Shown piece after piece: positions 15,151 through 34,657 of a stretch of DNA of 64,000 nt. How positions within the stretch are numbered: the first letter of the stretch is position 1; every line of letters begins with the position of its first letter. The notes beneath the pieces were generated by a model that had not been told where the DNA came from, did no database searches, and saw only the letters and a list, made by a program, of their open reading frames with translations. Made by a program: the position numbers and the translations under genes. The stretch is from Klebsiella oxytoca (GTDB taxonomy: Bacteria; Pseudomonadota; Gammaproteobacteria; Enterobacterales; Enterobacteriaceae): positions 1,674,001 to 1,738,000 of the forward strand of contig NZ_CP046115.1 of the NCBI RefSeq assembly GCF_009707385.1, written 5' to 3'.

Positions 15151-15205
15151 AGGGGTTGCTCTCCATTGTCTTTATCTTGTTTTTATAGAGGTAAGAGGGA
15201 GCGGA

Positions 15206-16345
15206 TTAGTCGCCTGCGACTGCCGCCTGTTTTCCACGGCGTTTCTCAATTGCCCACTTGAGTAACGCCGCACAGCGATAAAATCCGTGGGCAAATTTTC
15301 CGTAGGGAATAGTTAAAAACAGCGCCATCACGACGCCAAGATGAATGGCAAGCAGGATGCCCATCCACGAAGTGTCGCGTCCTGCCAACAGGGCGAGCCC
15401 GGTAAGGCTGGTCAGGAACAGCAGCAGAATAAAGCCACGATCCATGGGTTTTTGTCGCGCGTCGCCGTGCAGCGGAGAACGACGCAGGTTCAGCCACAGC
15501 AAGCCAGCCGGACCTACCAGCAAGCCAATTCCGCCAAGCGTACCCAGAAGTACAGGAACGCTGAAGAACGGGTAGGGAGCTTCCCATCCGGCGAAATAGT
15601 GGTAGCCCGTGGCGACCACAGTGGCGGCGAAACAGAGCAGGAAACCATAGAAGGTAAAGTGATGGAAACGGCGGCGCATCAGCGTAAACGCGTCATCAGA
15701 CTCGTTGCAGCCTTTACCGTGTCCGCCGTCGAGATATTTCAGCGTAAGCGCATCATGTGAGGCCTTTGCGATATCACCAGGCTGCGGTTGGCCTGGTGAT
15801 ATCTCGCGCCAGAAACGGATCACCCCGGTCATCAGTAAACCGATGGCCAGAATGAAGACCGAGCCAAACATCCACGCCAGCAGGTTATGGGGAAATATCT
15901 GGTAAAAATCGCCGGCCAGCGGTGGATGAAGCAGTGAGCCTTTGAGCCCCATCGCCAGCAGTAAAAAGAGGATCAAACCGGCAATCAGAGCCAGCACCGT
16001 GGTTACGCCAGCCCGACGATACAGGCTGCCGAAAGCCGCGGGCTGAGCATAATGTTGATAGGTTTCCAGTCGCACTTCCGCCATCGCTTTCGGAACGTTA
16101 ATGGCAAACTCATGCGGCGGCGCGTACTGGCAAGCGTGCAGGCAGGCACCGCAGTTGTGGCACAGGTTGGCCAGGTAGTTAATATCCGCTTTGCCAAAGG
16201 CGAGGCGCTGGGTCATCGCCGGAAATACGGCGCAAAACCCTTCACAATAACGGCAGGCGTTACACACCTGCATCACCCTTTCAACTTCCGCTTCTGGTTC
16301 AGTGATGATTTGTGCGTCAATGATCAGCTTTTCAAGCGACTTCAT
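15206..16345 (-). CDS. tcuB: TcuB, membrane electron-transfer partner of TcuA
   Basis: In Salmonella TcuB reoxidises the reduced FAD of TcuA by passing electrons to the quinone pool. It has 379 residues. The N-terminal part has two Fe-S type cysteine clusters ([15 protein letters not shown] near 27-41 and [11 protein letters not shown] near 63-73), followed by about six membrane helices. The ATG at 16345 is chosen because AGGAG lies 7 bases upstream and the length equals the Salmonella protein; an open frame continues 22 codons further up. The start overlaps the tcuA end by 14 bases, so translation is coupled. Confidence 0.92.
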
Positions 16346-17735
16346 GCTGTGTCTCCTGCTGTGCCGCATGGGCGGCTTGCTGGCCGGCAATGCAACCGAA
16401 TGTAGTACCAATCGACATGCCCACCCCGGCGGTATAGCCTTTGCCCAGTACGTTGCCGGCCATCATTTCACCGGCCACGAACAGGTTACGGCTGGGCTTG
16501 CCTGCAAAATGGACGGCGGAGCGTTCATTAACATAGAGTCCGAGATAGGTGAAAGTGATCCCTGGACGTAACGCATAACCGTAGTAGGGCGGCGTATCGA
16601 TGGGCCGCGCCCAGTGGGTTTTCGGCGGCGTCAGGTCTGATGTCGCGCAGTTATCAAGGCGGGTATGATCGAACTGGCCGGGCGTACAGGCGGCGTTATA
16701 GCGGGCGATGGTTTGCGACAGTCGTTCCGCGTCCAGCCCCAGCTGGCGAGCCAGTTCGGCGATAGTATTGGCCTGGGCTCCGGGAAAAACGGGCGGCATA
16801 AAATGACCGATCGCTTTGCTGTCGATGATCGAGTAACCGATTTGGCCGGGCTGGTGGGCGACCAGCCGTCCCCAGATGGCATAGCGTTTAGGCCAGAAAT
16901 CCTCGCCCTCATCATAAAAGCGCTCGGCATCGCGGTTGACAACCACACCCAACGACACGCAGTCCACGCGCGTGCAGATGCCGCCATCATAGAGCGGCGC
17001 CCGGGCGTCAATCGCGACGCAGTGTGACTGTGACGGATCGCCGATGATGTCAGCCCCTGCCTCGATCATAAATTTGAGCAGGACGCCCTGGTTGAAGCGG
17101 GTTCCGCGGATGAGAAAGTTATCGGCTGGCCATTCGCCACGCTCGTTCTGTCCCCAGGCTTCGCGCAGCCACTCGCGGTTAGATTCAAACCCGCCCGCGG
17201 CGAGGACGCAGGTTTTCGCCGCGATCCTCTCTTCACCCGCCAGCGCGGCGACGAATTCGCCGTTGTGTAATTCAAGCGCCTGCACCGGCGTGTTGTAACG
17301 GATCTGCACGCCCAACTGTTCTGCGCTGCGGTAATAGGCGTTTATCAGCGCTTTACCGCCGCCCATAAAAAAGGCGTTAGTGCGGGCCACGTGCAGGGCG
17401 CCGGACAGCGGCGGCTGGAAGTTAACGCCATGCTGGCGCATCCAGTCGCGGCATTCAGATGAGGTGCGGATCACCAGCCGCGCCAGCGTTTCGTTGGTGT
17501 TGCCATCGGTAACGCGCAGCAGATCCTGCCAGTATTCTTCTTCCGGATAGCTGTCGACTAAAACATCCTGCGGAGCATCATGCATACAGCGAAGATTTCG
17601 CGTGTGCTGAGAGTTTCCGCCTCGCCATTCCCGCGGTGCGGCCTCCAGCAGCAGCACGGACGCGCCAGCTTCCCGGGCGGTTAAGGCGGCGCATAATGCG
17701 GCATTGCCGCCGCCAATCACCAGTACATCCACCAT
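16332..17735 (-). CDS. tcuA: Tricarballylate dehydrogenase TcuA
   Basis: An FAD flavoprotein that oxidises tricarballylate, a toxic citrate analogue made by rumen bacteria, to cis-aconitate, which enters the TCA cycle. It has 467 residues. The N-terminal dinucleotide fold is [21 protein letters not shown] (about 4-24, given here as [10 protein letters not shown] and LTAREAG). The C-terminal FAD motif is [20 protein letters not shown]. The ATG at 17735 has GGAG six bases upstream; an ATG four codons earlier has none. The fold is that of the fumarate reductase flavoprotein family. Confidence 0.92.
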
Positions 17736-17832
17736 TTTTGGCTCCATTACGGTTTGCTTTATTGTTAAATTTGTAATGGAAATGTAGGTGCTCAGGCCGG
17801 CAAGCCGCTATGGCGTATTGCTAAAGGGGGGT

Positions 17833-18759
17833 TTAGTGAGCGTAAAGACTGGCGCCCGGCCAGCGGCCTGATTCAACGAGCTGACGCATGACTTTTGTCA
17901 GTATCACTCGCGCCGCAAGGCCTGCTGGCGTCAGTTCATCATCAGAGAGACTGACGAGAAAATTAGGCCGACTGAGTATCGGATTGTCGACACCGATCAC
18001 TCTCAGCGCCTCGTTGTCGAGATGAGAAATGGCTGCCCCAGGCTGCAGAGTAGCGCCGAGTCCGTCGCGGACGGCGCGCATCAGCAGCGCCAGACCGTCG
18101 ATTTCAGCTACCACATCAATGTTAAGGGAGTGTTCCTGGCAGATAGACTCGAGCCTGCCGCGCAGACCATGCCCCTGGCTTGGCATAATCAACGGGATAG
18201 CGGCCAGCTGGCCTGGCGAGATGCTCGCGTCGGGAAGGGGAGCCAGCACTTCGTGGGTACCTATCAGGAACAGACGCTCTTCGAGAATGGGTCTGGCGCT
18301 CCAGCGCATAAGCTTCTCCTTCTGGAACACGATGGCTAAATCAAGCTGACGGGTATTGATCATTCGCTCAAGGTTGCCGGAGAGGCTTTCGACTAAATGC
18401 AGGCGGACATCGGCATAGCTTTCGCGCATCGCGTTAATAAAAGGCACCCCCAGAACAGAGGCGGTGCTTGGGGCCATACCGACGCTGACGTGGCCGGAAA
18501 GGCGCGCTTCGCGCGCGGCGAGAACCGCATCATCAGCATGACGCAGAGCCAGCTGCGCCTGAGAGTAAAAGGCAAGGCCAGCGCTGGTCGGCATCACGCC
18601 GCGCGATGTTCGTTGCAGCAGGCGAATAGCAAGTTCGTTCTCCAGACGCGCCATTTGTTGGCTAAGCGCGGAGACACCGATATTCAGATCTAGGGCGGCG
18701 CGGCCCATGCTGCCGGTTTCGATAATGCGGACAAAATAGCGTAGCTGGCGAAGCTCCAT
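17833..18759 (-). CDS. tcuR: LysR-type activator TcuR
   Basis: Expected to switch on tcuABC in response to tricarballylate. It has 308 residues from the ATG at 18759, chosen for GGAG upstream and because MELRQLRYFVRI is the usual LysR start. The winged helix covers about 1-60 (GSMGRAALDLNIGVSALSQQ) and the ligand domain about 90-300. It is transcribed in the same direction as tcuABC with a 97-base gap, so tcuA may have its own promoter there. The open frame runs 24 codons further up without a good start site. Confidence 0.88.
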   Translation of the reverse strand: MELRQLRYFVRIIETGSMGRAALDLNIGVSALSQQMARLENELAIRLLQRTSRGVMPTSAGLAFYSQAQLALRHADDAVLAAREARLSGHVSVGMAPSTASVLGVPFINAMRESYADVRLHLVESLSGNLERMINTRQLDLAIVFQKEKLMRWSARPILEERLFLIGTHEVLAPLPDASISPGQLAAIPLIMPSQGHGLRGRLESICQEHSLNIDVVAEIDGLALLMRAVRDGLGATLQPGAAISHLDNEALRVIGVDNPILSRPNFLVSLSDDELTPAGLAARVILTKVMRQLVESGRWPGASLYAH

Positions 18760-18842
18760 GTCGACTCTCCGTACAAGGCTGGATCCACTGACAGTAAATG
18801 TATTGAGGCGCGAGAGGAAGAGGGGGATCATATTCAGAGCAA

Positions 18843-22280: not shown

Positions 22281-23921
22281 ATGGCAATCGATAAACGCGC
22301 AGGTCAACCTGCGCAACAGAGTGATTTGATTAACGTCGCCCAGCTGACTGCCCAGTACTATGTGCTGAAGCCGGAAGCAGGCAACGCGGAACATGCGGTG
22401 AAGTTTGGCACCTCTGGCCATCGCGGTAGCGCGGCGCGCCATAACTTCAACGAACAGCATATTCTGGCGATTGCGCAGGCAATTGCGGAAGACCGCGCGA
22501 AGAACGGGATCACCGGCCCATGCTACGTCGGGAAGGACACCCACGCACTATCCGAGCCAGCCTTCATCTCCGTACTGGAAGTGCTGGCGGCGAACGGTGT
22601 TGACGTCATCGTTCAGGAAAATAACGGCTTCACTCCGACGCCGGCGATTTCCAATGCCATTCTGGTGCACAACAAAAAGGGCGGCCCGCTGGCCGACGGT
22701 ATTGTTATTACGCCGTCACACAACCCGCCGGAAGACGGTGGTATTAAGTACAACCCACCAAACGGCGGCCCGGCTGACACTAACGTCACTAAAGTTGTCG
22801 AAAATCGCGCCAACGAACTGCTGGCTGCGGGTCTGCAGGGCGTGAAGCGCATCTCACTGGATGCAGCGCTGGCTTCCGGCCACGTCAAAGAGCAGGATCT
22901 GGTGCAGCCGTTTGTTGAGGGGCTGGCAGATATCGTCGATATGGCGGCGATCCAGAAAGCCGGATTGACGCTGGGCGTCGATCCGCTGGGCGGCTCCGGT
23001 ATCGAATACTGGAAACGTATCGCTAAGCATTACAACCTTAACCTGACCATCGTTAACGACCACGTTGATCAGACCTTCCGCTTTATGCACCTCGATAAAG
23101 ACGGCGCAATCCGCATGGACTGCTCCTCGGAATGCGCGATGGCCGGCCTGCTGGCGCTGCGCGACAAGTTTGATCTGGCCTTCGCCAATGACCCGGATTA
23201 CGACCGTCACGGTATTGTCACTCCGGCCGGGTTAATGAACCCGAACCATTATCTGGCGGTAGCGATTAACTATCTGTTCCAGCATCGCCCGCAGTGGGGT
23301 AAAGATGTTGCGGTCGGTAAGACCCTGGTCTCTTCGGCGATGATCGACCGCGTGGTTAACGATCTGGGCCGTAAGCTGGTGGAAGTGCCGGTCGGCTTTA
23401 AGTGGTTCGTTGATGGCCTGTTCGACGGCAGCTTCGGTTTTGGCGGCGAAGAGAGCGCGGGAGCCTCATTCCTGCGCTTTGACGGCACCCCGTGGTCTAC
23501 CGACAAAGACGGGATCATCATGTGTCTGCTGGCGGCAGAAATCACTGCCGTAACCGGCAAAAACCCGCAGCAGCACTACGATGAACTGGCTGAGCGCTTC
23601 GGTGCGCCAAGCTACAACCGTCTGCAGGCTTCCGCGACGTCAGCTCAGAAAGCGGCGTTGTCTAAGCTCTCGCCGGAAATGGTTAGCGCCAGCACCCTGG
23701 CCGGTGACCCGATTACCGCACGTCTGACCGCGGCGCCGGGTAATGGCGCAGCGATTGGCGGCCTGAAGGTGATGACCGACAACGGCTGGTTCGCCGCGCG
23801 TCCGTCAGGCACCGAAGATGCCTATAAAATCTACTGTGAAAGCTTCCTCGGCGCTGAGCATCGTCAGCAAATTGAGAAAGAAGCGGTGGTAATTGTCAGC
23901 GAAGTGCTGAAAAACGCGTAA
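22281..23921 (+). CDS. pgm: Phosphoglucomutase
   Basis: Interconverts glucose-1-P and glucose-6-P, feeding glycogen, trehalose and envelope sugars. It has 546 residues, equal to E. coli Pgm. The phosphoserine is Ser146 in [11 protein letters not shown], the metal-binding loop is DPDYDRHG, the sugar loop is [10 protein letters not shown], and the C-terminal phosphate site is RPSGTED. The ATG at 22281 has AGGATCAGGCA upstream. Confidence 0.97.
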
Positions 23922-23934
23922 TTAAAATCACGTT

Positions 23935-23966
23935 AATCAGGCCCTTATAAGGGCCTGATTTTTTTC
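23935..23966 (+). terminator. pgm terminator
   Basis: A perfect palindrome AATCAGGCCCTTA and complement, followed by a T run, 13 bases after the stop. Confidence 0.9.
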
Positions 23967-23978
23967 GCAAGGAATGCG

Positions 23979-24398
23979 ATGAAACTGGAACGTAAAAATG
24001 TTTTTTGGTTCTGGGGTGGGATGGATCTGTTCTATTTCCTCCAGTTTATTTGCTGGAATGTCTACCATCAGCGTGTACCTTTCTACGACGATCTCCTTTC
24101 ATATCTTCAGCTTCTGCAAACCTATGGTTCTGCGGCTGCCTGGTTATTCCCGCTAAATTTCATGCTGATCCTGAGTATTCCGCTGTCGATGATTCTCTTC
24201 TGGCGGCAGAGCCGCTATGCGCTGTGGCTGACCTACGCGCAGACGCCGCTGCGCCTGATTTTCATGCTGCCTTCACTTTCGCTGGTGTTCTGGATGCTGC
24301 GCGAAATGGAGTTTAAGGGGAGCGCATTTTATATTGGGTTCCTGCTGTTGTCAGAGGTGGCAAAAGTCGCGACCCTTTGGCGATGCCGCAGGGCTTGA
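23979..24398 (+). CDS. Uncharacterised four-helix membrane protein
   Basis: A 139-residue protein that I do not recognise. Four hydrophobic segments are visible: about 9-26, 52-75, 82-107 and 116-133. The N-terminus is basic (MKLERK), and aromatic residues crowd the first helix. AAGGA eight bases upstream supports the start. It begins right after the pgm terminator and is followed by 330 bases of AT-rich DNA. It lies where the conserved block ends and the accessory sugar cluster begins. Confidence 0.75.
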   Translation: MKLERKNVFWFWGGMDLFYFLQFICWNVYHQRVPFYDDLLSYLQLLQTYGSAAAWLFPLNFMLILSIPLSMILFWRQSRYALWLTYAQTPLRLIFMLPSLSLVFWMLREMEFKGSAFYIGFLLLSEVAKVATLWRCRRA

Positions 24399-24731
24399 GC
24401 GCGATGTCGGCAGGCTGGTTATCCTGAAATCTACGGCTGTTAGCGTCCTGCGGTGACTGAATCGGGCATAATCGGGTATTGCACGTTTGCCCGACTTTGC
24501 CCGTTCTGCAGAAAAAACTGGCATGATTATCGATTAATGCCGCTTATTTTTGTGGTTTTCATCACAATATAACCCCGTTTCATATGAAATTTTCTAAATA
24601 TATATGATCGACTTCAAATTAAAAAAAGCTACAAGGTTGTTTTGATTTTGTATGATTTATGTCACTTACTGATATGGATGATTTTGTTATATTTATGTCA
24701 TTAAATCCTGGATGCTTTCTTGAGAACTTAT
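24399..24731. promoter_or_regulatory. AT-rich control region before the sugar-alcohol cluster
   Basis: No gene is seen in these 333 bases. They hold a good CRP-like site TGTGG-TTTTCA-TCACA (24551-24566), a weaker one TATGA-TTTATG-TCACT (24651-24666), and a perfect 12-base palindrome TTTCATATGAAA (24578-24589) that could be an operator. Base composition is far richer in A+T than in the flanking genes. Confidence 0.5.
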
Positions 24732-25529
24732 ATGTTACAAGTTAAACGTCACTCATTAATTGTGGAATATGTCGTAGAAAAGGGATGTGCCAGAGTTAAT
24801 GAGCTGTCGCGAATATTTGGCGTATCTCCGGAAACCATTCGTCGTGATTTAACTACGCTGGCCAGGAATAAGAAAATAGTGCGCAGCTTTGGTGGTGCAA
24901 TGATTTCTGAAAATAATGCATCATTTTTGTCTGCCGATACTCCGACAAATAATGGAAACTTTGTCGATAAAGCAGAAGCTTTTATTAAACGCACTAAAGA
25001 GCAGCCGGAGCGTAAGATGCGTATTGCTAAAGGTGCACTGCAGTTTATTCATGAACACGAGTGTATTATCATGGATAACAGTAGTTCCTGCTGGTTTCTG
25101 GCCCGCCAGTTGCCTGATATCGAATTGACCGTTATCACCAATTCTTTGAATATTATTCAAACCTTGGCCTGTCGTAAGAAAATAAGAATCGTCAGCGTTG
25201 GGGGTGAATATTCTGAGCGACACGGTGATTTCCACGGTCCGGTAGCTGAGTTTATTATTAATAACTTTAAGGTGAATAAGCTTTTTTTTTCCTGCCAGGG
25301 GTTAGACTCCGGTCTGGAAATTAAAGATAGCAACGAGGTTAATGTCCGCTTAAAGCAAGAAATGCTTAAAGTTGCCGATCAAAAAATTCTGATGGTTGAT
25401 AGCAGTAAGTTTGAGCGCTATTCATTATATAAAATATGCGATCTAGCGGATATTGATATCATGATCACTAACGAATTACCAACCGCTATCTATCGTCAGG
25501 AACAGGTTCATATTGTAGAGACTAAATAA
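24732..25529 (+). CDS. DeoR-family transcriptional regulator of the sugar-alcohol cluster
   Basis: A 265-residue protein. The N-terminal DeoR helix-turn-helix (about 4-56) carries the family signature VNELSRIFGVSPETIRRDL. The C-terminal sugar-phosphate sensor domain (about 90-250) has NSLNIIQTLA, GGEYSERHGDFHGP and VDSSKFERYS, typical of regulators that sense phosphorylated sugars. It is likely to control the genes that follow, with L-xylulose-5-P or a related phosphate as inducer (inferred). The ATG at 24732 is preferred over a TTG four codons earlier. The gene is AT-rich with many rare-type codons, unlike its neighbours, suggesting acquisition. Confidence 0.85.
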   Translation: MLQVKRHSLIVEYVVEKGCARVNELSRIFGVSPETIRRDLTTLARNKKIVRSFGGAMISENNASFLSADTPTNNGNFVDKAEAFIKRTKEQPERKMRIAKGALQFIHEHECIIMDNSSSCWFLARQLPDIELTVITNSLNIIQTLACRKKIRIVSVGGEYSERHGDFHGPVAEFIINNFKVNKLFFSCQGLDSGLEIKDSNEVNVRLKQEMLKVADQKILMVDSSKFERYSLYKICDLADIDIMITNELPTAIYRQEQVHIVETK

Positions 25530-25578
25530 AAGCTCTGCATAATAAACTATTTTCATCATTATTTACTACTCTTGTGCC

Positions 25579-25615
25579 AGATGGAGGAGTATTGCGTCAG
25601 CAATACTGTCCATCT
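25579..25615 (+). other. Two-part stem-loop between regulator and dehydrogenase genes
   Basis: Inner stem AGTATTGC-GTCA-GCAATACT and outer stem AGATGGA/TCCATCT, followed by TTCATTATTTA. It could end the regulator mRNA or set how much reads on into the operon. Confidence 0.6.
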
Positions 25616-25644
25616 TCATTATTTATCCGCAAACGAGGTTTACA

Positions 25645-26718
25645 ATGGAACAATTACCTGAAGAGATGAAAGCGGTTGTCTGCCATGGTCCCCAGGATTA
25701 CCGCTTTGAGAAAATTAAACGTCCGGTCGCACAAGAAAGAGAAGTGGTTATTAAAGTTGACGGTTGTGGAATATGTGCTGGCGATTGTAAGGCCCAGGAT
25801 GGCGCCGCTATGTTCTGGGGTGAGAATCCATGGGTAAAAACGCCGGTTGTTCCGGGACATGAATTCTACGGGCGGGTTGCTGAATTAGGCCCAGGTTCAG
25901 CTGAAAAATATAAATTAAAAATTGGCGACCGTATTCTGGCGGAGCAGATTGTACCCTGTCATGAGTGCCGTTTCTGTAAAACTGGTAAATACTGGATGTG
26001 CGAAACTCACGATATTTACGGTTTCCAGAAAGATGTTGCCGATGGCGGTATGGCTGAATATATGCGTTTTTCAGAAAGAGCGATTATTCACAAGATTCCC
26101 GAATCATTAAGCGAAGAAGATGCCGCCCTTATCGAACCGATGGCATGCGCCATCCACACGGTACGCCGCGGAGATATCGATCTGGATGATGTGGTTGTTA
26201 TCGCTGGCGCCGGGCCGCTGGGTCTGTGTATGGTGCAGGTCGCGCATCTTAAAACGCCGAAGAAGCTGGTTGTTATCGACACGATGGAAGACCGCCTGGC
26301 GCTGGCGAAAGCGTTTGGTGCCGATGTGGTTATCAACGCAGCGAAAGAAGATGCGGTTGCTATCGTTAAATCAATGACCGACGGGTACGGCTGCGACGTC
26401 TATATCGAAGCCACCGGAGCTCCAGTTGGCGTAACCCAGGGTCTGGAGATGATTCGTAAGCTGGGGCGCTTCGTCGAGTTCAGCGTGTTTGGTAAAGAAA
26501 CTACCGTTGACTGGTCGATCATTGGCGACCGTAAAGAGCTGGATATCCGCGGCGCGCATCTGGGGCCGTACAGCTATGAAATTGCCATCGATCTCTTTGA
26601 GCGAGGTCTTCTGACCGCAAAGGGGGTGGTTACTCACTTCTATTCAATCGATGAGTGGAAAGCCGCTTTTGAAGTGGCGAAGTCACTGGACTCTATTAAG
26701 GTCGTCATTAAACCATAA
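25645..26718 (+). CDS. Zinc-dependent alditol dehydrogenase (MDR family, erythritol/L-threitol dehydrogenase-like)
   Basis: A 357-residue medium-chain dehydrogenase. Catalytic zinc ligands are Cys44 (GCGICAGD) and His72/Glu73 (PGHEFYG). Four structural-zinc cysteines are at 105, 108, 111 and 119. The Rossmann motif is AGAGPLG, followed by VVIDTMEDR, whose Asp suggests NAD. From memory the ends and the segment GAAMFWG resemble the mycobacterial erythritol/L-threitol dehydrogenase EltD. Given the L-xylulose kinase downstream, the probable reaction is oxidation of L-arabinitol or xylitol to L-xylulose (inferred). GAGG lies 8 bases before the ATG. A gap of 225 bases separates it from the transporter. 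Confidence 0.85.
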   Translation: MEQLPEEMKAVVCHGPQDYRFEKIKRPVAQEREVVIKVDGCGICAGDCKAQDGAAMFWGENPWVKTPVVPGHEFYGRVAELGPGSAEKYKLKIGDRILAEQIVPCHECRFCKTGKYWMCETHDIYGFQKDVADGGMAEYMRFSERAIIHKIPESLSEEDAALIEPMACAIHTVRRGDIDLDDVVVIAGAGPLGLCMVQVAHLKTPKKLVVIDTMEDRLALAKAFGADVVINAAKEDAVAIVKSMTDGYGCDVYIEATGAPVGVTQGLEMIRKLGRFVEFSVFGKETTVDWSIIGDRKELDIRGAHLGPYSYEIAIDLFERGLLTAKGVVTHFYSIDEWKAAFEVAKSLDSIKVVIKP

Positions 26719-26730
26719 ACTTAACTTATT

Positions 26731-26748
26731 AAATGGCGCCATTTTTTT
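26731..26748 (+). terminator. Weak terminator-like hairpin after the dehydrogenase
   Basis: Palindrome AAATGGCGCCATTT running into seven T, 13 bases after the stop. The stem is only about 5 bp, so partial termination is more likely than full. The rest of the 225-base gap shows no gene. Confidence 0.4.
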
Positions 26749-26943
26749 AAGCGGCACAGAATCAACGTCGGCTAAATGAATACTGGATTTGTATCATGGT
26801 GATAACTGGGATAAATATCATCAGTATCTCTATTTCTGAACGCTGTGAATTTATTGCTCAGTATATCAGGCAACATTCGTACCATGAAAACGCCGGTGAA
26901 TAAATTTTATTTTCTGGCGCATTACTCAATAAGGAGATATTGA

Positions 26944-27858
26944 ATGCCTGTGAAATTTACTACCAAAGCATTACTCTCGGGGCTTTTGGCTATGAGCATG
27001 GTAGCCTGTATTAATGCCAGTCCTTTGAAAATCGGCATGTCGTTCCAGGAATTAAATAACGAATACTTCGTCACCATGAAAGAGTCGCTGGAGCAGTCGG
27101 CTAAGGACATTAATGCCACCGTCTATACTGCGGATGCGGCGCATGATGTTTCCAAGCAGATTAGTGACGTCGAGGACATGCTGCAAAAGAAAATTGATAT
27201 TTTGCTGATTAACCCGGCAGATAGCGTTGGTGCGGAAACCGCCGTGCTGGCAGCGAAAAAAGCGGGTGTAGTCGTGGTTGCTATTGATGCTCAGGCTAAC
27301 GGCCCCATTGATTCTTTTGTTGGCTCAAAAAACTATGATGCAGGTTTTATTGCCGGTGAGCATTTAGCGAAAGCGCTGGGTGAAAAAGGCAACGTTGCAA
27401 TTCTCGATGGTATTCCGGTGGTGCCTATTCTGGAACGCGTGCGCGGTTTTGAAGATGCGATGAAAAAGCATCCCGATATCAAAGTTATTACCAGGCTTAA
27501 TGGTAAACAGGAACGTGATACTTCCATGAGCGTGACGGAAAATATGCTGCAATCTAACCCTACGCTCAACGGTATTTTCAGCGTAAATGATGTTGGTTCC
27601 CTCGGTGCGCTGGCGGCTATTCAGGCATCGGGACGCGACGTGAAGCTGGTCAGCGTCGATGGTTCTCCGGAAGCGGTAGCCGAAATTGCTAAAGGCAATA
27701 CGCCATTTATTGCCACTGCCGCTCAGTTCCCGCGCGATCAGCTACGTATTGGTTTAGGTATTGCGCTGGCGAAACACTGGGGGGCGAATATTCCAAAAGA
27801 GATCCCTGTCGATGTGAAGCTGATTGATAAAACTAACGCTAAAGATTTCCACTGGTAA
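26944..27858 (+). CDS. Periplasmic sugar-binding protein of a ribose-type ABC importer
   Basis: A 304-residue RbsB-family protein that would capture the sugar alcohol. The signal peptide covers about residues 1-25; cleavage could be INA-SPLK, or VAC could act as an imperfect lipobox. Two-lobe marks are IGMSFQELNNEYFVTMKES, LLINPADSVGA, VVAIDAQANG (with the usual Asp), RVRGFEDA, FSVNDVGSLGALAAI and SVDGSPEA. AAGGAG lies 8 bases before the ATG. It is the first of three transport genes, and two hairpins follow it, which may keep its message more abundant than that of the membrane parts. Confidence 0.92.
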   Translation: MPVKFTTKALLSGLLAMSMVACINASPLKIGMSFQELNNEYFVTMKESLEQSAKDINATVYTADAAHDVSKQISDVEDMLQKKIDILLINPADSVGAETAVLAAKKAGVVVVAIDAQANGPIDSFVGSKNYDAGFIAGEHLAKALGEKGNVAILDGIPVVPILERVRGFEDAMKKHPDIKVITRLNGKQERDTSMSVTENMLQSNPTLNGIFSVNDVGSLGALAAIQASGRDVKLVSVDGSPEAVAEIAKGNTPFIATAAQFPRDQLRIGLGIALAKHWGANIPKEIPVDVKLIDKTNAKDFHW

Positions 27859-27878
27859 CCGCGTTATTACTCCACAGC

Positions 27879-27946
27879 GGCCCACCTTTATTTATGTGGG
27901 CCGTCCCGGATTTTTATTAAAATCTGGCACGATATTTTATCGTGCC
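27879..27946 (+). other. Pair of intercistronic hairpins after the binding-protein gene
   Basis: The first stem is GGCCCAC/GTGGGCC (27879-27902) and the second is GGCACGATA-TTT-TATCGTGCC (27926-27946). Such structures often protect binding-protein mRNA or limit read-through to the ATPase gene. Confidence 0.6.
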
Positions 27947-27963
27947 GTCATGGAGCGATGTTC

Positions 27964-29448
27964 ATGCCCAGCTTACTGGAAGTCAAAAACGTTAGTAAAA
28001 ACTTCCCCGGAGTCAAGGCGCTCGATAACGTCAATATCACCCTCGGTCGGGGGGAGGTTCATGCCTTACTGGGTGAAAATGGCGCGGGTAAATCAACGTT
28101 GATGAAAATCCTGTGCGGAATATATCAACCTGACGCTGGCAATATTTTTATTGATGGCAAGCAGCAGCATTTTCATAACTATCGTGATGCTATAGCGTGC
28201 GGTGTAGGAATTATCTTTCAGGAGTTTTCCCTTATTCCTTACCTTAACGCTTATGAGAATATTTTCCTTAACCGCGAGAAGGTGAACCGATTTGGTCTGT
28301 TAGATCGTAAAGCAATGCGCCGTGAGGCGCTGCGGATTTTCAAAGAGCTCGGCGTGACCCTCGATCCTGATGAGCAAATTTGTCACCTCAGCGTCGCCGA
28401 GCAGCAGTTTGTGGAAATTGCCAAGGCGCTATCGCTGGATGCGCGAATTCTTATTCTCGACGAACCAACCGCCACCCTGACGCCGAGCGAGGCGGAACAT
28501 CTCTTTCGCGTGATGCGCGATTTAAAAGCGAAAGGCGTCGGCATGTTCTTTATCTCTCATCACCTTGAGGAGATTTATGAGATCTGCGACAGCCTGAGCA
28601 TCCTGCGCGATGGCAAATATATCGGATCGGCAAAGGTTGATAACATCGATATCTCAGAAATGATCCAGATGATGGTCGGCCGCGAGGTAGAGAATATCTA
28701 CCCTGAGCGGCGGACGCTGGCGCATGATGAATTATTACTGGAAGCGGAAATTCAGCTCACGGAAAGCAGTCAGGTTAACCGACTGACGCTGCGCAAAGGC
28801 GAAATTTTGGGCCTTGCCGGGCTGGTGGGGTCAGGACGTTCGGAAACCATCCTGGCTCTGACCGGTGCGGATAAATGCTTCAAAAAACATGTTCGCCTTG
28901 CCGGAAAAGAGGTTACGATTAAATCTACCGATCAGGCTCTGCGTCTCGGGATCGGCCTGTTGCCTGAAAGCCGCAAAACACAGGGACTGGTGCTACCATT
29001 TTCCGTCAAAGATAATATCTGGCTCAACAAGCATGACTGTCAATTCTCGCTGATCCGCGATGGCGAAGAACGAAAAACCGCGGAACGTTTAATTAATCAT
29101 GTTGGCGTCAAAACGCCGGATGCGTGGACTGCCGTAGGCACATTGAGCGGCGGCAACCAGCAGAAAGTCGTTATTTCTCGTTGGTTAAATCATGATGTCA
29201 ATATTCTTATTTTTGACGAACCAACACGCGGTATTGATGTTGGCGCAAAATCAGAAATCTATCAAATCATGCGCGACCTCACCGCTCAGGGTATTGCGAT
29301 TATTATGATTTCGTCTGAATTACCGGAAGTCATTGGCGTTAGCGACCGGGTCATGGTTTTTCGTGACGGCAATATTGTCGCTGAGCTTGAGAACGACAAC
29401 ATTAACTCCACCGTGATTATGCTGCATGCTGCCGGTAATATTATTTAG
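27964..29448 (+). CDS. Sugar ABC importer ATPase (two nucleotide-binding domains)
   Basis: A 494-residue RbsA/MglA-type protein. In the first domain, Walker A is GENGAGKST (about 38-46), the signature is LSVAEQQ and Walker B is ILILDEPTA. In the second domain, Walker A is degenerate (GLVGSGRSE), the signature is LSGGNQQK and Walker B is ILIFDEPT, the usual asymmetry of this family. The ATG at 27964 has GGAG eight bases away and is preferred to the ATG two codons earlier, which is too close. It drives import through the permease 10 bases downstream. Confidence 0.93.
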   Translation: MPSLLEVKNVSKNFPGVKALDNVNITLGRGEVHALLGENGAGKSTLMKILCGIYQPDAGNIFIDGKQQHFHNYRDAIACGVGIIFQEFSLIPYLNAYENIFLNREKVNRFGLLDRKAMRREALRIFKELGVTLDPDEQICHLSVAEQQFVEIAKALSLDARILILDEPTATLTPSEAEHLFRVMRDLKAKGVGMFFISHHLEEIYEICDSLSILRDGKYIGSAKVDNIDISEMIQMMVGREVENIYPERRTLAHDELLLEAEIQLTESSQVNRLTLRKGEILGLAGLVGSGRSETILALTGADKCFKKHVRLAGKEVTIKSTDQALRLGIGLLPESRKTQGLVLPFSVKDNIWLNKHDCQFSLIRDGEERKTAERLINHVGVKTPDAWTAVGTLSGGNQQKVVISRWLNHDVNILIFDEPTRGIDVGAKSEIYQIMRDLTAQGIAIIMISSELPEVIGVSDRVMVFRDGNIVAELENDNINSTVIMLHAAGNII

Positions 29449-29458
29449 GGAGTAGTAA

Positions 29459-30445
29459 ATGAGTAATGAAAATGTATCATTAGCGCCAGCCGCATCTCCT
29501 GATAAAGATAAAAAAGTCCTCCATGGATTATTAAAAATGCCAGCGTTCCTGCCGTTTGTGGGACTGGTATTGCTGTTTTCCTGTATGGCTATCTTTAATG
29601 ACTACTTTTTAACGGTAGATAACCTGTCTACCGTCGCACGCCAGGTTTCGATTAACGCGATCATCGCTATCGGGATGACCTTTGCTATTCTTACCGGCGG
29701 TATCGACCTTTCCGTTGGCGCTGTGATGGCGCTGGCTGGAACCCTGATGGCAGGGTTAATGAAGTACTATGGTTTAGATCCCTGGCTCGCCATTCTTATC
29801 GGCCTGTGTTCCGGCGTGGCCTTTGGCGCGCTAAACGGTTTTTTAACCGCCTACGGTAAGATGCCGCCGATTATTGTGACTCTCGGAGCAATGATAATTG
29901 CCAAAGGCCTGGCGCTGATCTATACCGGCGGCTATCCGATCTCTGGATTACCGGATTCATTCGCTTTTTGGGGCCGTGAATATCTGTTTGGTATTCAGGT
30001 GCCGATTATTCTGATGGTCGTTTTATATATCATCTTCTATATCGTGCTGAACCATATGCCGTTTGGTCGCTATGTTTATTCCCTGGGCGGCAATGAAGAG
30101 GCGGCGCGCCTGAGCGGACTGCGGGTTAAATATTATAAGCTGCTGGTTTATGTAATTAGCGGCTTTACCGCCAGTTTTGCCGGACTTATTTTCACCTCGC
30201 GCGTGATGAGCGGTCAGCCTAATGCTGGAGTGGGTTTTGAACTGGATGCTATTGCCGCCGTGGTGCTCGGCGGGGCATCGATTGCCGGCGGCCGCGGAAT
30301 GATTATTGGCACGCTGATCGGCGCCATGATGCTCGGCGTACTGAATAATGGATTAAATCTTTTAGGGATCTCACCTTACGTTCAGTACGTAGTGAAAGGG
30401 CTTATTATTTGGGGCGCCACCTTTATTAGCTCAGCCAGACGTTAA
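29459..30445 (+). CDS. Sugar ABC importer permease
   Basis: A 328-residue RbsC-family membrane protein with about 8-10 helices. Family motifs are LTGGIDLSVGAVMALAG, PPIIVTLGAMIIAKG, GRYVYSLGGNEEAARLSG, the EAA-like loop contacting the ATPase, and AIAAVVLGGASIAGGRG. GGGAG precedes the ATG. A palindromic repeat begins at the stop codon itself and separates the transport genes from the catabolic ones. Confidence 0.93.
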   Translation: MSNENVSLAPAASPDKDKKVLHGLLKMPAFLPFVGLVLLFSCMAIFNDYFLTVDNLSTVARQVSINAIIAIGMTFAILTGGIDLSVGAVMALAGTLMAGLMKYYGLDPWLAILIGLCSGVAFGALNGFLTAYGKMPPIIVTLGAMIIAKGLALIYTGGYPISGLPDSFAFWGREYLFGIQVPIILMVVLYIIFYIVLNHMPFGRYVYSLGGNEEAARLSGLRVKYYKLLVYVISGFTASFAGLIFTSRVMSGQPNAGVGFELDAIAAVVLGGASIAGGRGMIIGTLIGAMMLGVLNNGLNLLGISPYVQYVVKGLIIWGATFISSARR

Positions 30446-30591
30446 GAGCCTATCTCATTAGGGCTATTTTGCTTGCCATTTTGAACCTGGGCAGTGCTCA
30501 GAATCCTCACGTACTACGTGTACGCTCCGGTTCTTCCGCGCTGTCCGTGTTCAAACTGTCTGCGCCAATAACGCCTACTGGGATAGGCTCT
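30445..30591. repeat. 147-bp imperfect palindromic repeat (MITE-like)
   Basis: The ends are near-perfect inverted repeats (AGAGCCTATCTCATTAGG against AGAGCCTATCCCAGTAGG), and the match continues inward for about 50 bases with some mismatches, so the transcript would fold into one long hairpin. The centre holds CACGTACTACGTG. It has no coding capacity. It interrupts the operon between permease and kinase. A diverged relative seems to lie at 57442-57619. Confidence 0.75.
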
Positions 30592-30620
30592 AAATCATTT
30601 TCATTGTGGGGTGAAGGGAT

Positions 30621-32099
30621 ATGAATTTTATCGGAGTGGATATAGGTGGTACGGTCACCAAAGCGGGTATATATAATGAGTCAGGGCAGGAGATCCACGT
30701 TGCTTCACAATATGCGCAGGTATTATCCGAACAGCCGGGTTTTACTGAACGAAATATGCATGAGCTATGGGACACCGTTTGCCGCGTGATTAAAAAAGCG
30801 ATGTATGAAAGCCAGGTGCCTCCGTTAAGCATCGGCGGCATCGGTTTCTCTTCCCACGGCAAAGGGTTGTACGCGATTGATAAAAACGGCGAGCCGGTGC
30901 GCAACGGCATTATCTCATCCGATACTCGGGCGCTGGAGTTTGTCAAAAAATGGTATCGCGAAGGTATCGATAAACTGGCCTACCCAAAGGGGTTGCAGCA
31001 GCTGTGGACCGGGCACCCGGTGTCGCTGCTGGCGTGGCTGAAAGAACATGAACCGGCCAATTACGACAGGATCGACGCCGTTTTAATGGTACACGACTAT
31101 ATTCGCTTCCGCCTGACCGGCGAGGCGACGGCAGAGATCACCAATATTTCCGGTAGCAATTTTTATAACCAGTTCACCTCCCGCTATGACTGCGACATGA
31201 TGGCGCTGTTTGGTATTGAGGAAGTGGCGGAGAAAACCGCACCGGTAGTGAACTCGACGGACTGCGTAGGCCACATTACCTTACAGGCTTCGCTGGACTG
31301 CGGGTTATGTCCGGGGACGCCGGTATTCGGCGGCTTTTTCGACGTGGTTGCTTCCGCGGTCTCCTCGGGCATTGACCGGGCCGATACCCTGAGCGCGGTG
31401 GCCGGGACCTGGAGCATTGCCACCTCCGTAACGGATAGCATTATCGCCAGCGACTTCCCGTACATCTGGGGAAAATACTGCATCCCGGGCAAATATTTTG
31501 TTCATGAGGGCAGCCCCACCTCGGCGAGCAACCTGTCGTGGTTTGTGAAGCAGTTTTTTCCGGATGATGATCGCTGCTACGAGCATTTTGAAAGCTGGAT
31601 TGCGCAGGAGACTGACAGCAGCCTGATCTTTTTACCCTATCTGTTCGGTTCGAATCTGGCGATGGATCTCCCCGGCGCGCTGGTCGGCCTGGCGGGGCAT
31701 CACAGCAAAAAGGATATTATCGCCGCCATTTATCGCGGGATCGTTTTTTCCCATCTGGTGCATCAGGACCGTATTATCGAACTCAATCAGGATATCCAAA
31801 AAATCCGCTTTACCGGCGGGCCAAGCCAGTCGAAAGGCTGGACGCAGATGTACGCCGATGCTTCAAATCTCCCGCTGGAAGTGGTCGATATCGAACAGGC
31901 CGGATGCCGGGCCGCCGCACTCTGCGCCGCGGCAGGGACCGGAGCGTACGCCAATTTCAGCGAGGCGATTAAAGCCACCCAGCCGGAGGTGGTTTGCTAT
32001 CAACCCGACAGCAAACGGCATCAACAGCTACGTGAAGGCTACGACCGTTATTTACAGGTAGCGCAAAGCCTTTCCAGAGCAACGGGAGCTGCACAATGA
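30621..32099 (+). CDS. FGGY-family carbohydrate kinase, L-xylulose kinase-like
   Basis: A 492-residue kinase whose closest relative in memory is E. coli LyxK (L-xylulose kinase, 498 residues). Shared stretches include GIGFSSHGKGLYAIDKNG, WTGHPVSLLAWLKEHEP, HDYIRFRLTG and HEGSPTSASNLSWF. The ATP-site motif DIGGTVTKAG is at 7-16, the catalytic Asp is in FGGFFDVVAS, and the C-terminal phosphate loop is RFTGGPSQSKGW. The likely product is L-xylulose 5-phosphate. GGTGAAGG precedes the ATG. The stop overlaps the next start (ATGA), so the catabolic genes are coupled. Confidence 0.87.
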   Translation: MNFIGVDIGGTVTKAGIYNESGQEIHVASQYAQVLSEQPGFTERNMHELWDTVCRVIKKAMYESQVPPLSIGGIGFSSHGKGLYAIDKNGEPVRNGIISSDTRALEFVKKWYREGIDKLAYPKGLQQLWTGHPVSLLAWLKEHEPANYDRIDAVLMVHDYIRFRLTGEATAEITNISGSNFYNQFTSRYDCDMMALFGIEEVAEKTAPVVNSTDCVGHITLQASLDCGLCPGTPVFGGFFDVVASAVSSGIDRADTLSAVAGTWSIATSVTDSIIASDFPYIWGKYCIPGKYFVHEGSPTSASNLSWFVKQFFPDDDRCYEHFESWIAQETDSSLIFLPYLFGSNLAMDLPGALVGLAGHHSKKDIIAAIYRGIVFSHLVHQDRIIELNQDIQKIRFTGGPSQSKGWTQMYADASNLPLEVVDIEQAGCRAAALCAAAGTGAYANFSEAIKATQPEVVCYQPDSKRHQQLREGYDRYLQVAQSLSRATGAAQ

Positions 32100-32995
32100 A
32101 ACCCAGAATTGGTATTTACGAAAAAGCGCTTCCTGCGGAGCTGAACTGGGCGCAACGCTTTGCAACGGCGGCCAGTCTGGAATTTGATTTTCTCGAAATA
32201 TCCGTTGATGAAAGCCCCGATCGCCAGGCCCGACTGCGCTGGAACCGCGGGCAGCGGCTGGCATTCGTGGCGGATAAAATTAACAGCGGCATCGATGTGC
32301 CGAGCATGTGCCTTTCCGCGCACCGTAGCTATCCTTTTGGCAGCGTCAATCGCGATACCCGGCTTAAGGCGCGTGAACTGATGCTGGATGCGCTGGATTT
32401 TGCCAGCCACGTCGGCATTCGCAATATCCAGCTGGCAGGTTATGACGTTTATTACGAATCGTCTTCGGCTCAGACGCGGGAATATTTTATTGAGGGTATT
32501 AACTGGGCGGTAGCTGAAGCGGCGAAAGCGCAGGTAATGCTGTCGATGGAGATTATGGATACCGCCTTCATGAGCAATATCTCCCGCTGGCTGGATCTGG
32601 AGCGCAAGGTTTGTAGTCCGTGGTTTTGCGTTTACCCGGATGTCGGCAACTTAAGCGCCTGGCAAAACGACGTACCTGAAGAGTTGAGTAAGGGAATTCA
32701 TAAAATCACCGCGATTCATTTGAAGGATACCCAGCCCGTTTCACACGCCTCTTTGGGGCAGTTCCGCGACGTGCCATTCGGTACCGGCTGCGTCGATTTT
32801 ACTGAGATATTCCGTACCCTCTCGGCGCTGAACTACCGCGGCGCGTGGCTGATTGAGATGTGGGCTAAAAATGACGGCCTGGATAGCGAGAGAATTGCCG
32901 AAGCTAAAGCGTGGCTTGCGGATAAATATCAGCAGGCGTTTCGTCCACCGCAGTATGAAAGCATGGTGAATTCAGGAGTGAAGTATGTTGGATAA
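32096..32995 (+). CDS. L-xylulose-5-phosphate 3-epimerase (UlaE/SgbU family)
   Basis: A 299-residue TIM-barrel enzyme, predicted to turn L-xylulose-5-P into L-ribulose-5-P. Metal and catalytic residues of the UlaE family are kept: Glu152 (SMEIMD), Asp182 ([10 protein letters not shown]), His208 (AIHLKDT) and Glu254 (LIEMW). Other shared blocks are [17 protein letters not shown] and [11 protein letters not shown]. It is slightly longer than E. coli UlaE, with extra residues near 213-225 and at the C-terminus. It overlaps the kinase by 4 bases and the next gene by 11. Confidence 0.9.
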
Positions 32996-33680
32996 CCTCA
33001 AGCAGGCGGTTTTCGACGCCAATCTGGCGCTGCCGAAATTTAATCTGGTGACTTTTACCTGGGGTAACGTCAGCGGTATCGATCGCGATGCCGGGCTGGT
33101 GGTGATTAAACCTTCCGGCGTTGAATACGCCGCGATGGCGGCGGACGATATGGTGGTGGTTGAACTGGCGACCGGCAGGGTGGTGGAGGGACGTTACAAG
33201 CCTTCATCGGATACGCCGACCCACCTTGAGCTGTATAAAGCGTTTAGCGACGTGGGCGGAATCGTACACACCCACTCGCGCCATGCGACCATTTGGGCGC
33301 AGTCGGGCAGGCCGCTGCTGGCGATGGGCACCACCCATGCCGACTATTTTTATGGGCCTGTTCCCTGTACCCGACCGCTTAGCGACGATGAAATCCGCGG
33401 TAATTATGAAGCCAATACCGGTCATGTGATTATCGAGACGTTGAACCGGCAGCACATTGAACCGCTCAGCGTACCCGCCGCGCTGGTCCACGGCCATGGC
33501 CCTTTTGCGTGGGGAAAAGACCCGGCGAACGCGGTACATAATGCGGTGGTGCTGGAAGAGATTGCCTATATGAATATGTGGACTCGGCAGTTGTGTACTG
33601 ACGAACAGCCGGTCTCTGCGACGCTGCTGGATAAACACTACTTGCGTAAACACGGGGCGGGGGCCTACTACGGGCAATAA
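32985..33680 (+). CDS. L-ribulose-5-phosphate 4-epimerase (AraD family)
   Basis: A 231-residue class II aldolase-fold enzyme, the same length as E. coli AraD, SgbE and UlaF within a few residues. Zinc ligands His95, His97 (IVHTHSRH) and His171 are present, as is Asp76 (SSDT). Asp120 and Tyr229, needed for epimerisation rather than aldol cleavage in AraD, are also kept, so the activity is well supported. The product D-xylulose-5-P enters the pentose phosphate pathway. It starts inside the preceding gene and closes the cluster, directly before a REP array. Confidence 0.92.
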
Positions 33681-33691
33681 TCGCCCGCATT

Positions 33692-33971
33692 CCCCGGATT
33701 GCGGCGTAAACGCCTTATCCGGGCTACCGATTCACAGACGGCGGTGGACAAGTAGCCCGGCTGAGCGAAGCGCGAGCCGGATTGCCCCCCCCGGAGGCGG
33801 CGCTTGCCGCGCCTGTCCGGGCTACGCGTCTTCAGCGGTCTGCGGTCCGGTAGCCCGGCTGAGCGAAGCGCGAGCCGGGTTGACCCCCCGGAGGCGGCGC
33901 TTGACGCACCTGTCCGGGCTACCGCCTGGCAGACGACGGCGGTAGCCCGGCTAAGCGAAGCGCGAGCCGGG
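33692..33971. repeat. REP/BIME array of six units
   Basis: Two unit types alternate in opposite orientation. Type A, GTAGCCCGGCTGAGCGAAGC onward to GAGCCGGG, occurs at about 33752-33780, 33850-33879 and 33942-33971. Type B, CCGGAGGCGGCGCTTG to GTCCGGGCTAC, occurs at about 33789-33825 and 33886-33922, with a classical REP at 33692-33727. The array fills the space between the convergent 4-epimerase gene and kdpE; no other feature is seen there. Confidence 0.9.
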
Positions 33972-33979
33972 GACAACGG

Positions 33980-34657
33980 CTACGGCATAAACCGGTAGCC
34001 AATCCCCGTTTCGGTCAGCAAATGCTGCGGACGGGCCGGATCGACCTCCAGCTTTTGCCGCAGATGTCCCATATAAATACGTAGATAGTGGCTATGCTCC
34101 ACCGCATTCGGCCCCCAGACCTGGTTGAGCAGCTGTCGCTGGGTCAGCACCTTGCCTGGATTATTTAACAGCACTGCCAGCAGGCGAAATTCAATCGGCG
34201 TCAGGTGTATCTCCTCGTCGCCGCGCAGGATGCGACGGGCGGGGATATCCACTTCGATATTGGCAAAACGCACCAGCGGCTCGTCGGCCTGAGCGCCTGA
34301 ATGACGGCGCATCGCTACCCGCAACCGCGCCTGCAGTTCACCGATACCGAAGGGCTTACTGAGATAATCATCGGCGCCGGCGTCAAGGGCGGCGATCTTG
34401 TCCTGCTCCTCGGTGCGCGCCGATAGTACGATAATCGGCATCTGGCTCCACTGGCGAACTTCGCGAATAAACGCGTTACCATCACCATCGGGCAGCCCAA
34501 GATCGAGAATGGTTAAATCCGGCTTGCGGGTCGCGGCTTCAATCAGCCCGCGCTGCAGCGTTTCCGCTTCAAATACGCGCATGCCGTCGGCTTCCAGCGC
34601 GGTGCGCAGAAAGCGGCGGATAGCGTTTTCGTCTTCGATAATCAGTACGTTTATCAC
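33980..34657 (-). CDS. kdpE: Response regulator KdpE
   Basis: Activates kdpFABC under potassium limitation. It has 225 residues. The receiver domain has the phospho-Asp at 52 (TILDLGLPD), acidic pocket Glu8/Asp9 and Lys in YLSKPFG. The C-terminal OmpR-type winged helix has HLTPIEFRLL and SHYLRIYMGHLRQKLE. The start codon is GTG with GGAAG upstream. A 27-base gap separates it from kdpD, whereas in E. coli the two genes overlap. Confidence 0.96.
   Translation of the reverse strand: MINVLIIEDENAIRRFLRTALEADGMRVFEAETLQRGLIEAATRKPDLTILDLGLPDGDGNAFIREVRQWSQMPIIVLSARTEEQDKIAALDAGADDYLSKPFGIGELQARLRVAMRRHSGAQADEPLVRFANIEVDIPARRILRGDEEIHLTPIEFRLLAVLLNNPGKVLTQRQLLNQVWGPNAVEHSHYLRIYMGHLRQKLEVDPARPQHLLTETGIGYRFMP

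Follow-up and report, generated by a model that had tools for sequence, protein, structure and literature searches.

A window of 64,000 nucleotides from Klebsiella oxytoca (assembly GCF_009707385.1, contig NZ_CP046115.1, positions 1,674,001 to 1,738,000 of the forward strand; "the window" throughout) carries an operon of eight same-direction genes, each with an open and complete frame, at positions 24732 to 33680 (+). We propose, with a probability of roughly two in three, that this operon serves the catabolism of a pentitol, most likely L-arabitol and/or xylitol, via L-xylulose. An RbsABC-type ATP-binding cassette (ABC) importer would take up the five-carbon alditol, most likely one or both of these two, a zinc dehydrogenase would convert it to L-xylulose, and a LyxK-clade kinase, assigned from clade and context, would form L-xylulose 5-phosphate; judging from family and active-site residues, a 3-epimerase would then yield L-ribulose 5-phosphate and a 4-epimerase D-xylulose 5-phosphate, to enter the pentose phosphate pathway, with a DeoR protein as the probable operon repressor. 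The eight genes are:

24732..25529, +, DeoR-family transcriptional regulator (PF00455, PF08220), probable local repressor
25645..26718, +, zinc medium-chain polyol dehydrogenase, proposed to form L-xylulose from a pentitol
26944..27858, +, periplasmic binding protein of an RbsB-type importer (PF13407), proposed pentitol binder
27958..29448, +, two-domain sugar ABC transporter ATP-binding protein (PF00005 in two stretches)
29459..30445, +, sugar ABC transporter permease of RbsC type (PF02653)
30621..32099, +, LyxK-clade FGGY kinase, a proposed L-xylulokinase (identity to LyxK and clade position)
32096..32995, +, UlaE-type L-xylulose/L-ribulose-5-phosphate 3-epimerase (TIGR00542, metal-site residues)
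32985..33680, +, AraD-type L-ribulose-5-phosphate 4-epimerase (TIGR00760, catalytic residues)

Each named class agrees with Pfam and NCBIfam family scans, and frames and scans together confirm the gene set of an original prediction made from the bare sequence, namely a DeoR regulator, a zinc dehydrogenase, a ribose-type importer, a LyxK-like kinase and two epimerases. The DeoR frame has a TTG start at 24720 and an in-frame ATG at 24732, and the DeoR query for the family scans and the BLAST reference ran from codon 2 (24735); the frames of kinase and 3-epimerase overlap by 4 bases, those of the two epimerases by 11. Only the epimerases pass curated NCBIfam cut-offs, the 3-epimerase with 374.9 bits to TIGR00542 (cut-off 272.15) and the 4-epimerase with 394.4 bits to TIGR00760 (cut-off 389.1). 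The other six proteins give superfamily matches, with no curated equivalog cut-off passed among the matches shown, so that family models leave the exact names of the dehydrogenase, kinase, importer and DeoR unsettled. The AraD-type residues D76, H95, H97, D120, H171 and Y229 and the UlaE-type residues E152, D182, H208 and E254, which we take to be catalytic or metal-binding, are all present, and to that extent both sites are intact, as had been predicted. Within 23900 to 34200, nothing scores above the Rfam gathering scores. Scans for promoters (15 versus 13.0 in shuffles) and terminators (10 versus 12.8) show no excess, and since the promoter count is no higher than in shuffles we claim no promoter.

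The kinase is 42.3% identical to Escherichia coli LyxK versus 25.5% to XylB and 24.8% to AraB, and in a tree of 36 rows, some deep joins of which may be long-branch artefacts according to a program warning, it falls in the LyxK clade and not with XylB, AraB or RbtK, in a subclade of 15 rows (support 97/95) that leaves the yia-type kinases outside. We compared the best 80 kinase loci from genome contigs, 34 with a kinase at least 46.5% identical to the window's and 46 others, counting neighbour genes within 6 kb, midpoint to midpoint. We find an SgbH/UlaD-type decarboxylase in 0 of the 34 closest-kinase loci versus 38 of the 46 others, and yiaK/N/O genes in 0 of 34 versus 42 of 46; the decarboxylase is also absent from the eight genes of the window operon. 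This pattern places the window group outside the 3-keto-L-gulonate route, and the missing decarboxylase makes L-xylulose a more likely kinase substrate than 3-keto-L-gulonate, as we infer from LyxK clade and context. A 3-epimerase accompanies at least 27 of the 34 closest kinases and a 4-epimerase at least 10, both counts being low because the Providencia-type 4-epimerase and three Succinivibrionaceae 3-epimerases lie beyond 6 kb and some contigs are cut. Seven loci (Sodalis, Martelella, three Succinivibrionaceae and two Pleomorphomonas) have a 3-epimerase with no 4-epimerase in the fetched stretch, two of these stretches being shortened by contig ends; a 3-epimerase kept without a 4-epimerase fits L-xylulose 5-phosphate as the kinase product. 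On family and active-site residues, the predicted lower pathway from L-xylulose 5-phosphate through L-ribulose 5-phosphate to D-xylulose 5-phosphate is well supported, and this pathway and its L-xylulose intermediate, both part of the original prediction, draw support from the kinase clade, the lack of a decarboxylase nearby, the 3-epimerase that is often kept and the intact epimerase sites.

Other kinases of this clade stand in different surroundings. A sister operon of Providencia, Pantoea and Citrobacter (L046, L052, L055 and plasmids H41-H52) combines a DeoR gene, a two-permease importer and 3- and 4-epimerases, has no dehydrogenase, and encodes a kinase 54-56% identical to that of the window; the DeoR proteins adjoining dehydrogenase-less kinase operons of this type are 48-56% identical to the operon DeoR. 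Plasmids of Enterobacter, Klebsiella and Citrobacter also carry a kinase 55% identical to the window's. A second LyxK-clade kinase of the genome (C1:2824432), on a long branch, was set aside; it lies in a phosphotransferase system (PTS)-type operon (L174, C1:2817000-2834000) encoding galactitol-EIIC-like, DhnA-aldolase-like, short-chain dehydrogenase/reductase (SDR) and 2-hydroxyacid-dehydrogenase-like proteins, none of which reaches a curated cut-off.

The importer is best read as a pentitol importer, possibly for several pentitols. In an alignment of 34 binding proteins (33 loci and the window), the 15 positions matching what we take to be the ribose contacts of E. coli RbsB are invariant in all 34, and five of them are unlike RbsB (S9Q, F15Y, R90A, F164Q, F214V); against the RbsB model the binding protein scores 155.9 bits and does not reach the cut-off of 337. 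Its structural model (mean predicted local distance difference test score, pLDDT, 90.6) has a periplasmic-binding fold with ribose-binding proteins as the closest fold match, and the fold comparison matches ribose, allose, inositol and other binders without separating the ligand. A clear gap sets the family off in a plasmid collection: among the 40 of 95 records listed, binding-protein identities span 78% to 58%, and the next are at 37% or less. Across 39 loci, a non-random set selected through the kinase, the dehydrogenase or the binding protein, the site stays constant in the importer family while the surrounding genes vary and include several likely pentitol pathways. A LyxK-clade kinase, mostly with a 3-epimerase, marks the first context (Enterobacterales, Succinivibrionaceae and a few others), a dehydrogenase and an XylB-like kinase the second (Burkholderia-type and other loci), and an AraC regulator, SDRs and an FGGY kinase of ribitol-kinase type the third, which comprises most alphaproteobacterial plasmid loci; the one kinase of that plasmid set that was scanned, from Rhizobium (L121), passes TIGR01315.

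When an even sample of 398 Pseudomonadota genomes was searched with the binding protein, nine matched, the window's own genome included, and the dehydrogenase adjoins the importer in seven of the eight others; the neighbour in the eighth genome most resembles a ribitol-dehydrogenase-type SDR, by similarity only. This recurrent pairing indicates that importer and dehydrogenase probably work together, and the comparative context supports the earlier suggestion that the imported compound is an alditol, here a pentitol. The operon might instead import a free sugar, either the ketose L-xylulose or the aldose L-lyxose, its dehydrogenase acting on a second, unrelated substrate or as a reductase, much as the sister operons combine the same DeoR, kinase and epimerase types with a two-permease importer and no dehydrogenase, and as dehydrogenase and importer stand on a Providencia plasmid without a nearby kinase. 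We consider this unlikely, however, given the pairing in seven of eight genomes and the binding-site positions that depart from RbsB.

Other loci of the genome, a single contig of 5.39 Mb, narrow the choice of pentitol. They include another kinase above the TIGR01315 cut-off (767.6 versus 408.7 bits) with an adjoining ribitol-dehydrogenase-like SDR and, next to it, an XylB-clade kinase, read as DalK, with a major facilitator superfamily (MFS) transporter; the D-arabitol locus is read from this kinase and transporter. The ula, xylAB and araBAD loci are present as well. Ribitol and D-arabitol are thereby probably served elsewhere, which leaves L-arabitol and xylitol among the four pentitols. Both can yield L-xylulose by oxidation at C4, so that the step originally predicted agrees with established carbohydrate chemistry.

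Quite unlikely, in our view, is a route in which the dehydrogenase converts ribitol or L-arabitol to L-ribulose, the kinase is an L-ribulokinase, AraD finishes the pathway and the 3-epimerase forms a side branch. An AraD-type enzyme is indeed present, the importer family also accompanies ribitol-dehydrogenase-type SDRs, and the local stereochemistry that we take EltD, the source of the dehydrogenase's database name, to have would yield L-ribulose; but the kinase sits in the LyxK clade, far from AraB, the seven relatives noted above retain a 3-epimerase with no 4-epimerase in the fetched stretch, and loci of rbt and ara type are already present in the genome.

Formation of L-xylulose by the dehydrogenase also bears comparison with a reaction from xylitol or D-arabitol to D-xylulose, in which case the kinase and epimerases would serve another sugar. 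XylB-like kinases do adjoin orthologous dehydrogenases in Burkholderia-type and other loci, but the three scanned (L017, L043, L149) score 325-341 bits, below the xylulokinase cut-off of 380.25, the window kinase lies outside the XylB clade, and four of the seven XylB-like-linked loci have an L-xylulose-reductase-like SDR (L149 by solved structures; L150, L151 and L153 by similarity), and we regard this route as very unlikely. Comparison of L-xylulokinase-linked dehydrogenases (12; Sodalis has both kinases) with XylB-like-linked ones (7) reveals only three group-fixed positions that differ, few enough to suggest one reaction for both sets.

The SDRs themselves point, as a lead and not as proof, to L-xylulose. 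In the three dehydrogenase-bearing loci searched (L012, L149, L155), the best solved-structure match of the SDR is L-xylulose reductase, L012 having a different importer and no kinase within its stretch. The second SDR of the Rhizobium importer operon gives the same match and the first matches ribitol 2-dehydrogenase, so that an L-xylulose reductase match is not given by every SDR. Those of L150, L151, L153 and L156 were typed by similarity to the L012 protein only, and the Burkholderia-type loci L017, L119 and L152 have no L-xylulose-reductase-like SDR. We call this a lead because human L-xylulose reductase also acts as a dicarbonyl reductase. As a tentative extension, which we hold to be possible and no better than that, importer and dehydrogenase could form a transferable pentitol-to-L-xylulose module in several Pseudomonadota groups, plugged into alternative lower pathways: kinase and epimerases in Klebsiella, Serratia, Sodalis relatives and Succinivibrionaceae and, in other Gammaproteobacteria and some Burkholderia-type loci, a bacterial version of the fungal route, with an L-xylulose-reductase-like SDR (L-xylulose to xylitol to D-xylulose) and an XylB-like kinase.

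Some close homologues of the dehydrogenase, one of them 86% identical, are named erythritol/L-threitol dehydrogenase in databases, and several homologues of 53-57% identity adjoin DhaK, mostly also RpiB and SorC-type regulators. In a tree of 37 rows (G411 and G096, of the 17 non-own genome matches, were left out of the dehydrogenase loci), eight tetritol-type rows, among them L159, which has no DhaK/RpiB-type neighbours, group together with support 100/99. The importer-linked dehydrogenases lie on the other side of a weaker fork (90/94), a side that also holds L154 and one L157 row, both from tetritol contexts, and L012, L014 and L118. We find 20 group-fixed differences between the 23 importer-linked and the eight tetritol-clade dehydrogenases: all 23 have Met56 and Trp63, with Pro62 in 21 and Ala62 in the other two, and all eight of the tetritol clade have Ser56 and Tyr63. 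This pattern at residues 56 and 63 suggests a difference in specificity between the groups. The rule is not strict, since Met56 occurs with Tyr63 in L014, L118 and L162; L154 has Arg56-Ala62-Tyr63, and the L157 row has Met-Pro-Phe at 56/62/63. Among the 120 best homologues from any context, Met56 is found in 117 and Trp63 in 109. Comparison of the model fold places threonine, sorbitol, L-arabinitol and other medium-chain dehydrogenase/reductase (MDR) enzymes within about 3 Z units and does not separate ligands. The name erythritol/L-threitol dehydrogenase is doubtful here: the resemblance to such enzymes stated in the original prediction is largely a matter of the database label, and most tetritol-operon dehydrogenases form a separate clade in the tree, with two exceptions. 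An operon for a tetritol (erythritol or L-threitol), as the name of the 86% identical homologue and the several DhaK-linked, mostly RpiB-linked, homologues would have it, is highly improbable, given that none of the eight genes is of DhaK or RpiB type, that most tetritol-linked dehydrogenases belong to the Ser56/Tyr63 clade (8/8) and not with Met56/Trp63 (23/23), and that the epimerases act on C5 sugar phosphates.

Two groups of plasmid loci lie near this comparison. L014 and L118, from Cronobacter and Pantoea plasmids, have 60-61% identical dehydrogenases whose neighbours are a GH88 glycoside hydrolase and a LacI regulator, and L015 and L016, from Salmonella and Klebsiella pneumoniae plasmids, are tetritol-type operons with a dehydrogenase, an MFS transporter, DhaK/DhaL, RpiB and transaldolase.

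Several points weigh against a pentitol operon running through L-xylulose. The L154 dehydrogenase, 64% identical to the window's, stands in a tetritol-type operon, and one of the three positions that differ between kinase-defined dehydrogenase sets, residue 46, is two residues from the catalytic Cys44. EltD we take to yield L-erythrulose, and on pentitols its stereochemistry would predict L-ribulose or D-xylulose rather than L-xylulose. Related importer/dehydrogenase pairs occur with XylB-like or TIGR01315 kinases, partners that could mean a D-xylulose or D-ribulose product. A Providencia alcalifaciens plasmid (L011) carries an 86% identical dehydrogenase and a 73-82% identical importer with a LacI regulator, but the surrounding 10 kb or so hold neither a kinase nor epimerases. 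Both epimerases are likewise missing at a Succinivibrionaceae locus (L116) whose kinase belongs to the group. Among the literature matches listed, we found no enzyme, binding or growth data for the operon.

Known systems share parts of the proposed pathway. Mortlock, Fossitt, Wood and Doten reportedly described how Aerobacter aerogenes (Klebsiella) and Erwinia break down L-arabitol and xylitol by way of L-xylulose, in the order proposed here (pentitol, L-xylulose, L-xylulose 5-phosphate, L-ribulose 5-phosphate, D-xylulose 5-phosphate); that pathway is said to have been defined by enzyme activities, partly in mutants, and we found no link from it to this gene set. The E. coli yiaK-S (lyxK-sgbHUE) and ula operons have the kinase clade and the 3- and 4-epimerases in common with the window operon; in contrast, their entry compounds are 2,3-diketo-L-gulonate or ascorbate, they include a decarboxylase gene, which the window operon lacks, and their fetched stretches show no annotated polyol dehydrogenase. 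PMC9953744 cites the 1965 work of Mortlock, Fossitt and Wood on how Aerobacter aerogenes uses unnatural pentitols, and PMC10398940 cites Sakakibara and Saha (2008) on a Pantoea ananatis xylitol operon, together with a paper of 2012, for an L-arabitol 2-dehydrogenase, xytF. The P. ananatis operon, likewise enteric, is represented here by this citation, with no P. ananatis locus among those compared. With that xylitol operon in print and Aerobacter aerogenes pentitol use a classic, the original statement that no such enteric operon had been described goes too far.

The Mycolicibacterium smegmatis erythritol/L-threitol dehydrogenase pathway (Huang 2015, as cited in the available text of PMC12780249) shares the dehydrogenase superfamily and database name; it differs in its DhaK- and RpiB-type genes, absent here, and most dehydrogenases of DhaK/RpiB operons fall in the other clade. 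The erythritol/adonitol/L-arabitol locus of Sinorhizobium meliloti (MptABCDE, LalA, RbtABC; PMC3599248) imports several polyols including L-arabitol through an ABC transporter, as proposed here, but employs EryA and LalA-RbtABC, and the accessible part of that paper describes no kinase-epimerase route like the window's. A literature search whose coverage excluded most subscription journals gave no description of this gene set among the matches listed. PMC6824210 reports phenotype arrays for the K. oxytoca complex, and a term search of its main text, as far as accessible, finds neither arabitol nor xylitol; the accessible portions of PMC12780249, PMC6365646, PMC12193009, PMC10433430 and PMC4179279 hold no direct evidence on the operon, and a term search of PMC9007349 and PMC10932307 gave no match. 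Thus the pathway chemistry is known, and this gene set with its importer family is apparently uncharacterised.

If the pentitol reading is correct, it would give a gene-level basis to a trait of the K. oxytoca group reportedly known as enzyme activities only, and would assign a class of ligand to an importer family that at present is unnamed or carries the annotation ribose transporter. It would also flag a probable misnaming of erythritol/L-threitol dehydrogenases, supply candidate enzymes for L-xylulose production or use, and raise the question of which gut or plant niches offer L-arabitol or xylitol.

The operon is probably, on the simplest reading, a discrete, acquired island. It lies between pgm (plus a small open reading frame, ORF) and kdpE/kdpED, and these flanks match their counterparts in K. 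oxytoca, K. michiganensis, K. grimontii and K. spallanzanii at 96-99% identity; the closest named relatives of the operon kinase are Klebsiella. Of 20 genomes compared within the genus, counting that of the window, all have kdpE and seven have the operon (kinase at least 93%, dehydrogenase at least 96% identical). For 12 of the 13 operon-negative genomes, both flanks are in the fetched stretch, and the pgm-kdpE gap is 61-480 bp in ten and about 4.3 kb with other ORFs in two, compared with 10,062 bp in the window genome. G+C content is 0.57 upstream, 0.43 at the regulator end and 0.61 at kdp. Superficieibacter electus likewise has the operon between pgm and kdpE. A genome search for the same gene order, suggested alongside the original prediction, finds it in other genera, so that the arrangement is not chance. 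Among 5,426 E. coli genomes, 298 have some DNA match and none covers 80% of the operon; the best places are at 80-90% identity in 297 and 95-99% in one, and the 20 matches listed are all 154 bases long and lie under hemE.

The small ORF that separates pgm from the operon (23979-24398, +) encodes 139 amino acids with no Pfam or NCBIfam match at E 0.001, and in three operon-negative genomes of the genus a relative of 63-64% identity is the only ORF between pgm and kdpE. Two genomes of the genus (L194, L198) have an ORF pair of about 440-460 and 730 amino acids at this site, and in Superficieibacter (L041) a pair of similar sizes, alike by size alone, adjoins the operon; the pgm-kdpE site may be a hot spot for insertions. 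Elsewhere in the window, a tricarballylate operon, tcuCBA, lies at 13855-18831 (-), with all three proteins above NCBIfam cut-offs and a LysR-type regulator adjoining.

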